NCBI GenBank assembly: GCA_024103275.1 | Contig: JAGFIV010000100.1 | Span: 124,001-188,000, forward strand | DNA: 64,000 bases | Reading direction: 5' to 3' | Origin: Flavobacteriales bacterium | Lineage (GTDB): Bacteria > Bacteroidota > Bacteroidia > Flavobacteriales_F > PHOS-HE28 | Shown: positions 16,632-54,250 of the stretch, in pieces | Layout of the letters: each line of letters opens with the position of its first letter | Numbering within the stretch: the stretch's first letter is position 1 | The notes under the pieces: model-generated | Seen by the model: the letters and a program-made list of their open reading frames with translations, nothing else | Told to the model about the DNA's origin: nothing | The model's database searches: none | Position numbers and translations under genes: made by a program

Positions 16632-17723
16632 ATGATCGGCCAGCGCTTCTCGAAATACCTGCCGCCCCGGGACGCACGGACGCCGTTCGAACGGTTGCTG
16701 CCGATCTTCCTGGAGATCCTCACCCACACCAGCGGCGACGTGGAGGAAGCTTTCGCCTGGATGAAGGAGGTGGACAAGGCCCGCGGCCTGTTCAGCAAGG
16801 AGTACACGTTTGACGATTTCCGCAACGACCTGCTCAAGCATGGATTGCTGGGTGTGTCCGTGCACGGGAAGGAAAAGATGAAGCTTACCGGAAAGGCCGA
16901 GCGGCTGATCCGCGAGCATGCGTTGGAACAGGTCTTCGGCAAGCTGAAAAAGGCCGGGCGCGGCCACCATGGATTGCGCCGCACCGGCCAGGGAGAAGAG
17001 ATATCGAGCGACCGGCGCAGCTTCCGGTACGGCGACGGGCTGGACCAGGTGGCCATGAGCGACAGCATCCGCAAGGCCCAGCGGCGCGGCGCGGATGACC
17101 TGTGGCTCACCGAGGACGACCTGGAGGTGGTGGAGACCGAGCACCAAAGTGCCTGCGCCACCGTGCTGATGATCGACATCAGCCACAGCATGATCCTGTA
17201 CGGCGAGGACCGCATCACCCCCGCGAAGAAGGTCGCATTGGCCTTTGCGGAACTGATCCACCGCCGCTACCCAAAAGACACGCTGGACATCGTCGTGTTC
17301 GGCAACGATGCCTGGCAAGTGGAGCTGAAGGACCTGCCATACCTGCAAGTGGGGCCGTTCCACACCAACACCGTGGCCGGGCTGGAGCTGGCCATGGACA
17401 TCCTGCGGCGCCGCAAGCTGAAGAACCGCCGCATCGTGATGATCACCGACGGGAAGCCCAGTTGCCTGAAGGAAGCCGGTGGATACTACATGAACAGCGC
17501 GGGGTTGGATGAGCGCATCGTCAACCGCACGCTGGATGCCGCCGCACGCGCCCGGAAGGCCAACATCCCCATCACCACCTTCATGGTCGCCAGCGATCCC
17601 TGGTTGCAGCAATTCATCAGGCGCTTCACCGAGGTGAACCAGGGCCGCGCCTTCTACACCGGACTGAACGGACTAGCCGACATGGTGTTCCGCGACCACG
17701 CAGGGAACCGGAAGGCTTCATGA
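16632..17723 (+). CDS. VWA-domain protein (CoxE-like), partner of AAA+ ATPase
   Basis: 363 residues from the ATG at 16632. The N-terminal half is helical and charged. From about residue 175 a von Willebrand A domain follows, with an intact MIDAS: DISHS in MLMIDISHSM-type context (VLMIDISHSM), Thr in HTNTVAG and Asp in MITDGKPS. VWA proteins of this type bind a divalent cation through the MIDAS and pair with MoxR/chelatase-like ATPases for metal insertion or remodelling of target complexes. The ATPase gene follows 43 bases later, so the pair is almost certainly functional together. The client is unknown. Confidence 0.88.
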   Translation: MIGQRFSKYLPPRDARTPFERLLPIFLEILTHTSGDVEEAFAWMKEVDKARGLFSKEYTFDDFRNDLLKHGLLGVSVHGKEKMKLTGKAERLIREHALEQVFGKLKKAGRGHHGLRRTGQGEEISSDRRSFRYGDGLDQVAMSDSIRKAQRRGADDLWLTEDDLEVVETEHQSACATVLMIDISHSMILYGEDRITPAKKVALAFAELIHRRYPKDTLDIVVFGNDAWQVELKDLPYLQVGPFHTNTVAGLELAMDILRRRKLKNRRIVMITDGKPSCLKEAGGYYMNSAGLDERIVNRTLDAAARARKANIPITTFMVASDPWLQQFIRRFTEVNQGRAFYTGLNGLADMVFRDHAGNRKAS

Positions 17724-32944: not shown

Positions 32945-33054
32945 GAAACCGCGTCGCGCGGGACCGGTGCAGGCTCGTCGTTGTGCTGGAGTGAATGCTG
33001 TGCAGGGCGGCCCGTTCCCGGTTCTTTGATCCCACCCCTGTATCTTCACGCGGC

Positions 33055-33465
33055 ATGCGCATGGAATATCCGGCGAAGGTGTTGGTGGCCTGGGGCGAGG
33101 CCATCTCGGGCAATGCGGCCATCCGCGACTGGCTGATCAAAAACGGCTATCCGGAGCTGGGCTTGTTCGTGTTTGCGCTGTACCTGAAGCCGGACGCGAG
33201 GAAATGGCTGATGAAGAACGGCTTCCCGCACCTCATGGCCGTGATCCGGGGGATCGAGGGCGACGAGAAGGCCTTGGAGTGGCTGACCGCCCACGATATG
33301 CCGGTGCTGCGCAAGATGGTCGAATGCGGCGAGGATGACGAGGCCACGCGCTGGTTGCTGGAACGCGGCCATCGGGAGCTGGTGGTGCTGGCCAAGAAGA
33401 TGTGGTCCATCAAGTGGCAGATCGAGGAGGATAACATGGACCCGCACAAGTATCCGAGGCATTAG
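33055..33465 (+). CDS. small protein with four 25-residue WL repeats
   Basis: 136 residues. Trp occurs at 26, 51, 76 and 100, each within a unit of about 25 residues that starts (R/E)WLxxxG: RDWLIKNGYPEL, RKWLMKNGFPHL, LEWLTAHDMPVL, and RWLLERGHREL. No known domain was recognised; ankyrin-like or HEAT-like helical pairs are possible. A TATCTTCA box immediately precedes the ATG. It is convergent to the repeat-rich region before relA. Confidence 0.65.
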   Translation: MRMEYPAKVLVAWGEAISGNAAIRDWLIKNGYPELGLFVFALYLKPDARKWLMKNGFPHLMAVIRGIEGDEKALEWLTAHDMPVLRKMVECGEDDEATRWLLERGHRELVVLAKKMWSIKWQIEEDNMDPHKYPRH

Positions 33466-33830
33466 AAAAGCTGATCCGCCTTCGCCAAGGCTTCGGCGGG
33501 ACGAGAAGCGCTTGGTGCCACGGGCGCAATGGGACCTTGCCGACGGGAAACCTGAAACGTGAAACTTGAAACTTGAAACTGGAAACTTGAAACCACTTGG
33601 TGCTGCGGGCGCAACGGAGTTTCTCCTAGGTCCTACGTCCTACGTCCTACGAACTACGAACCCAGGTGGAGGAAAGCTGATCCGCCTTCGCCAAAGCCCC
33701 GGCGGGACGAGAAGCGCTTGGTGCCGCAGGCGCAATGGGACCTTGCCGACGGGAAACCTGAAACCTGAAACTTGAAACTGGAAAAGCCTGAAACTTGAAA
33801 CCGGCAAAACCTCCGGCCTCAGGTCGGGGT
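33466..33830. repeat. composite intergenic repeat with heptamer arrays, locus 1
   Basis: Contains two copies of a conserved GC-rich module (from GCTGATCCGCCTTCGCC at about 33470 and 33676 to ...GCAATGGGACCTTGC). It also holds a TTGAAAC-type heptamer array of six units (33552-33593), a TCCTACG/AACTACG array of five units (33624-33658) and a second TTGAAAC-type array (about 33755-33812). The same modules recur at 53998-54250. Any ORFs here are not conserved in reading frame across units of 7 bases. Confidence 0.75.
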
Positions 33831-53997: not shown

Positions 53998-54250
53998 TGG
54001 CCCATGACGCCGCAGGCGCAATGGGAACTTGCCTATGGGAAACTGGAAACTTGAAACTGGAAACTTGAAACCACATGGCGCCGCAGGCGCAAGGGATTTT
54101 CTCCTACGTCCTACGTCCTGCGTCCTGCGAACTACGAACTACGCAACCCAAGGGAGAAAAGCTGATCCGCCTTCGCCACGGCTTCGGCGGGACGGGAACC
54201 GATTGGTGCCGCAGGCGCAATGGGCCTTCTCCTGCGTCCTGCGAACCACG
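53998..54250. repeat. composite intergenic repeat with heptamer arrays, locus 2
   Basis: Modules in order: GCCGCAGGCGCAATGGGAACTTGCC; a TTGAAAC/TGGAAAC-type array (54038-54072); a short core fragment; a TCCTACG/TCCTGCG/AACTACG array of six 7-base units (54102-54143); a full GCTGATCCGCC-type module (from about 54160); and a short TCCTGCG/AACCACG array (54230-54250). Same parts as 33466-33830 but in different number and order. Located between a GT2 gene and asnB. Confidence 0.75.

Follow-up and report, generated by a model that had tools for sequence, protein, structure and literature searches.

The window, the whole 64,000-nucleotide stretch analysed here, carries paired arrays of 7-base tandem units (heptads) in two spacers between genes. 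The first spacer lies between a 156-aa ORF (32995-33465) and a convergent RelA/SpoT gene. The ORF has no Pfam match, but the sequence on its stop side can be recognised in seven species that were examined. The window comes from a genome of Flavobacteriales type. Relatives of RelA are found on 13 related contigs, 12 from Flavobacteriales or Bacteroidetes MAGs and one from Bacteroidales. The second site is flanked by genes for a family-2 glycosyltransferase and an asparagine synthase; it is downstream of one gene and more than 100 bases from either neighbour. Rfam has no match in the window. The original prediction described adjoining 7-base arrays at 33552-33658 and the same pair at 54038-54143, and direct reading and Tandem Repeats Finder agree that both pairs are real.

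Table 1 Heptad arrays and associated repeat modules in the window
Feature	Positions	Strand	Basis
REP-like palindromic module (GATCCGCCTTCGCC..GGCTTCGGCGGGAC) of the composite element	33464-33510	+	genome-dispersed copies; hairpin fold
GC palindrome module (TTGGTGCCACGGGCGCAATGGG)	33512-33535	+	direct-repeat family
GAAACNN heptad array, seven GAAAC words	33547-33593	+	direct reading, Tandem Repeats Finder, period scan
30-base linker with another copy of the GC palindrome module	33594-33623	+	direct reading, direct repeats, copy alignment
TCCTACG/AACTACG heptad array	33624-33658	+	direct reading, Tandem Repeats Finder, period scan
Second copy of the 115-base block 33464-33578	33670-33784	+	direct repeat, 93% identical
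Third GAAACNN array, interrupted	33753-33802	+	direct reading, Tandem Repeats Finder, period scan
GAAACNN array, second site, 4.9 copies	54038-54071	+	direct reading, Tandem Repeats Finder, copy alignment
30-base linker with GC palindrome, second site	54072-54101	+	direct reading, copy alignment
TCCTNCG (four units) and AACTACG (two units) array, second site	54102-54143	+	direct reading, Tandem Repeats Finder, copy alignment
REP-like and GC palindrome modules, second site	54155-54228	+	match to positions 1-75 of the element query, 91%

At the first site, positions 33552-33593 read directly as six units (CTGAAAC, GTGAAAC, TTGAAAC, TTGAAAC, TGGAAAC, and TTGAAAC), and Tandem Repeats Finder places the start of the array at 33547 and counts 6.7 copies. 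The second array reads as five units (TCCTAGG, three of TCCTACG, and AACTACG). The gap between the arrays is 30 bases at both window sites, and the GC palindrome within it belongs to a direct-repeat family with three copies, at 33506, 33591, and 33712. A third GAAAC array, absent from the original prediction, overlaps the second copy of the 115-base repeat. GAAAC resembles the end of CRISPR repeats; CRISPR was considered for the GAAAC arrays and rejected, as nothing spacer-like stands between the repeats.

A 200-base query taken from the element has 30 matches genome-wide. Apart from the window copies, one match, on contig C30, covers the GAAAC array and the linker and reaches into the start of the second array; another, at the end of contig C26, spans the palindrome and a GAAAC array; the rest are short, each limited to the palindrome or to a single array. 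The array pair is part of one dispersed composite, made up of a REP-like palindrome, a GAAAC array, a GC palindrome, and a CTACG array, and a third, shorter copy of the composite lies elsewhere in the genome. Therefore, the recurrence of the pair reflects the copying of one element rather than two independent events. When the three copies within the genome are aligned, the first site exceeds the second by 14 bases in the GAAAC array, whereas in the second array it is the second site that is longer, by 7 bases. In the C30 copy, where the start of the GAAAC array is ambiguous in the alignment, the second array is shorter by 15 alignment columns, which by eye correspond to two units and an ambiguous edge. 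Slippage predicts such differences of roughly whole units, which supports the replication slippage invoked by the original prediction.

The position of the window arrays in a dispersed composite, together with four Y1_Tnp matches in the genome, is consistent with the heptads being parts of a mobile REP-like element that spread only by transposition, the period being incidental. The short, dispersed, GC-rich palindromes, which here adjoin arrays, also resemble REP elements with RAYT transposases. However, no matching palindrome is found in the available flanks of the four Y1_Tnp loci, the palindromes being dispersed in the genome. In addition, most period-7 arrays elsewhere in the genome differ in unit and came to light in the period scan rather than with the element, and transposition is insufficient for the arrays outside the composite, so that this explanation is quite improbable. 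To our knowledge, heptad arrays are not part of any known REPs.

The period of 7 extends well beyond the composite. We scanned 670,672 bases for arrays by comparing the sequence with a shifted copy of itself (match +1, mismatch -2, score at least 13), setting aside four contigs that read as N (C4, C13, C19, and C20). Of 35 non-coding arrays, 20 have period 7 and 5 have period 8, and every other period is represented at most twice. Predicted coding sequence holds 21 arrays, with period 3 in five, period 7 in four, periods 6 and 24 in three each, and the rest scattered; the coding/non-coding split, and with it the division of the 24 period-7 arrays into 20 outside and 4 inside predicted ORFs, rests on home-made gene calls. 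Tandem Repeats Finder concurs, with period 7 in 16 of 22 non-coding clusters. Autocorrelation over all non-coding sequence is dominated by a period-3 signal that imperfect masking of genes lets through, and array scans are used instead. The window composite accounts for five of the period-7 arrays, and about 15 of the 20 have another origin; heptad units in the genome include AACTGAN, AGCCNNG, ATCAGCA, CCTACGN, and CTAGCAA.

These arrays exceed chance. Ten Markov shuffles together yield 13 arrays, one of them with period 7. The pattern GAAAC-NN-GAAAC-NN-GAAAC and its CTACG equivalent have 18 genome-wide matches each, and the reversed control of each has none. Unrelated units do share the period of 7, as proposed, but genome-wide; the pair itself, being one recurring composite, does not bear out that conclusion. 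Since over half of the non-coding arrays have period 7, two adjoining period-7 arrays are unsurprising. As 7-base tandem units that occur above chance and mostly in non-coding sequence, the heptads match the heptanucleotide simple sequence repeats of prokaryotes.

Contigs break in or beside heptad arrays at C26:94596-94627, at C76:71927-72167, at the starts of C129 and C75, and at the end of C56; at the ends of C76 and C56 the sequence gives way to low-complexity, C-rich stretches that may be poor assembly. Such contig ends, that of C76 in particular, are what an assembly or sequencing artefact might leave. However, the window arrays lie well within a 188-kb contig, shuffles do not reproduce them, and relatives assembled in few contigs, such as G024, also have period-7 arrays, which makes an artefact hardly credible.

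We consider that the window arrays are probably ordinary non-coding heptanucleotide repeats on a dispersed composite, derived by slippage and copied with REP-like DNA. Arrays would be born from short imperfect repeats, would lengthen and shorten by 7-base strand slippage in replication, and would survive where they disrupt no reading frame; those of the window would have been copied together with the REP-like repeated DNA. For the preference for 7, the published proposal is that 7 bases would be the length of DNA touching the polymerase. Several points count against the slippage explanation: slippage alone predicts no preference for 7 over 5, 8, or 10, array births are not sequence-blind (see below), and period-7 arrays are few in some relatives (1 of 22 arrays in G010). 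The finding is explained at the level of kind, not of why 7.

Related repeats are known from other bacteria. STRR sequences of cyanobacteria are heptanucleotide tandem repeats dispersed within a genome; the phylum and the units differ here. According to Mrazek et al. 2007 as cited in PMC4679880, heptanucleotides are the most abundant repeat class in most genomes, and polymerase contact length combined with slippage was proposed for heptamers (as cited in PMC4679880 and PMC4692102). Both the heptamer excess and its explanation by polymerase slippage are thus already published; the original prediction rediscovered this excess, and the pair adds little because it is one element. The repeats of Mrazek, Guo and Shah 2007, as represented in those citing articles, are like ours in their 7-base tandem unit, mostly intergenic position, over-representation, and proposed cause, whereas here one genome has many degenerate units and a dispersed composite carrying two. 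Heptanucleotide elements are also described in Geobacter (PMC2700814), and a 2025 survey reports that a subset of 6-9 bp units is enriched in prokaryotic phyla (PMC12699852). Nothing decisive comes from PMC4060949 and PMC3372288.

According to MacGregor 2015 (PMC4679880), heptads are present in Bacteroidetes, TAACTGA repeats occur in marine Beggiatoaceae, Cyanobacteria, and some Bacteroidetes, and indels between two close Cyanothece strains are mostly 7-nt increments. The TAACTGA repeats are likewise intergenic heptads mixed with others, and related AACTGAN arrays are present in our genome. In contrast, the window units are GAAACNN and NNCTACG rather than TAACTGA, and the window sites are not close upstream of a start codon, the first lying between convergent genes and the second downstream of one gene. 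The G-rich GGGNATC heptads of Xanthomonas and Nostoc are also intergenic and, according to Rehm 2015 (PMC4692102), vary in length and sequence between the shared spacers of related species; unlike them, the window units have no three-G runs and hence no basis for a G-quadruplex.

The unit length is not always 7, contrary to the original prediction. An 8-base family (TCTGATCN, GCCAATNN) occurs several times in this genome and also in G010. Sites with TCTGATCN and its complement are found at C37 (chunk 114073-114174), L265 853-917, and L268 3367-3410, and in a genus relative at L152 13188-13227; here a single family recurs, in contrast to the many differing heptads. In the available pieces of the genome, with neighbouring words counted at distances of up to 13 bases, GAAAC words are 7 apart in 30 of 37 cases. 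By the same count, 60 of 95 CTACG words are 7 apart, 17 are 8 apart, and 9 are 6 apart, many of the 6- and 8-base cases coming from pieces selected by the CTACG pattern, including the contig ends C75, C76, C129, and C56, whose C-rich sequence may be of poor quality. In pieces not so selected, 27 of 37 spacings are 7, 7 are 8, and none is 6. The helical constraint that had also been suggested is not supported, since the helical period of DNA is 10.5 bp and not 7.

Period 7 predominates strongly in this genome and less so in some relatives. The share of period 7 is 7 of 22 arrays in a genus sample, 1 of 22 in G010, 4 of 13 in G024, 9 of 28 in twenty genomes of other families, and 3 of 8 across 41 orthologue loci. 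To compare orthologous spacers, we used relA, which is matched in 37 of the 39 genomes of the genus. Of twelve loci tried, the stop was located in eight (G013, G022, G020, and G007 have no match to the stop-codon motif), and the same neighbour is kept in seven (G002 has a different neighbour gene). The relA 3' spacer carries period-7 arrays in three of the seven syntenic genomes, namely this genome, G028 (GAAACTT on the opposite strand and some CAACTG-like units), and G032 (CAACTGC/CAACTAA units). In the spacers of G004, G006, G019, and G031, the scan detects no period-7 array; by eye, two or three loose units can be made out in those of G031 and G006, and that of G004 has an inverted-repeat element instead of heptads. 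The gene flanking the second site has matches in 5 of 39 genomes, including this one, and the 3' flanks of the four relatives have no obvious heptad array. The arrays look recent and quick to change, because the relA spacers differ in their heptads and none is obvious at the second site in four relatives.

A single genome thus shows heptads of many sequences that share one period, and an orthologous spacer gains and loses heptads; together these would allow strains of one genus to be used to test why 7 bases is the favoured unit length of bacterial tandem repeats. As further observations, in G004, short miniature-transposon-like elements bounded by inverted repeats take up the spacers that hold heptads in our genome (L219, after relA, and L251, after the asparagine synthase gene), and G022 has a long period-7 array of alternating TGTCTTA/TGTCCTA units, with a higher-order period of 14, at L222 675-781, outside the matched relA part.

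Position relative to genes bears on a possible role of the arrays in the RNA of gene ends, such as Rho-dependent termination or 3' stabilisation. Fifteen array-bearing spacers, counted without two at contig edges and four array rows in predicted ORFs, comprise 8 co-directional, 5 convergent, and 2 divergent ones. Convergent spacers, as this role would favour, make up 5 of 15 with arrays against 32 of 216 in the background, but the orientation bias is not significant (p 0.07). Two of the 15 are divergent, and orthologous convergent spacers manage without arrays, so that a role in RNA is very improbable.

The words themselves recur across species. In whole-genome searches, GAAAC heptads are found in 10 of 58 genomes and the reversed control in 3; of the 39 genus genomes, 8 have CTACG heptads, and the control has 2 hits in total. 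AACT or AACC is present in 21 of 46 genome-by-unit entries; 2,000 shuffles of the units, which preserve unit composition only, average 7.5 and reach at most 15. The entries are non-independent across species. With similar units merged within each genome, AACT is present in 6 of 22 against 1.15 (5,000 shuffles, p 0.0002); single-linkage clustering across genomes collapsed to 5 clusters and was uninformative, and the within-genome version is used. The enrichment of the AACT core is a mild surprise and a lead. Array births are not sequence-blind, since GAAAC and CTACG recur across species, reversed controls are rare, and the AACT core is enriched. A fixed core followed by two variable bases in each unit, seen by eye in GAAAC-NN, CTACG-NN, and AGCC-NNN, was dropped: in a permutation test of adjacent column pairs on the distinct units of 54 arrays, 4 are below 0.05 and the combined p is 0.76.

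A unit period that stays constant despite sequence variation, the AACT core, and identical words in different species are each consistent with heptads serving, once every 7 nucleotides, as contact sites of a nucleic-acid-binding protein, the arrays being kept by selection. The article PMC4679880 proposes S1, cold-shock, or Csr proteins for the TAACTGA repeats. However, units within one genome are many and unlike, most orthologous spacers examined have no array, and no position relative to genes is favoured; we regard the protein-site explanation as unlikely. MacGregor's TAACTGA likewise contains AACT (PMC4679880), and one conserved factor might lie behind AACT every 7 bases, in Bacteroidota heptads and in TAACTGA arrays elsewhere alike, with arrays arising anew and independently in the same spacers, at times on the opposite strand. 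Such a factor could be a binding protein, or else a polymerase or repair enzyme pausing at the core, and it would create or keep arrays. We find this distinctly unlikely; a cause for the AACT core, should one exist, would lead to the enzyme or protein responsible for the period. Another adjacent heptad pair occurs outside the family, in G035, a genome with 342 GAAAC-heptad matches, where a GTTTCGA array (L117 17486-17565) is followed directly by an ACCCAAA array (17566-17625).
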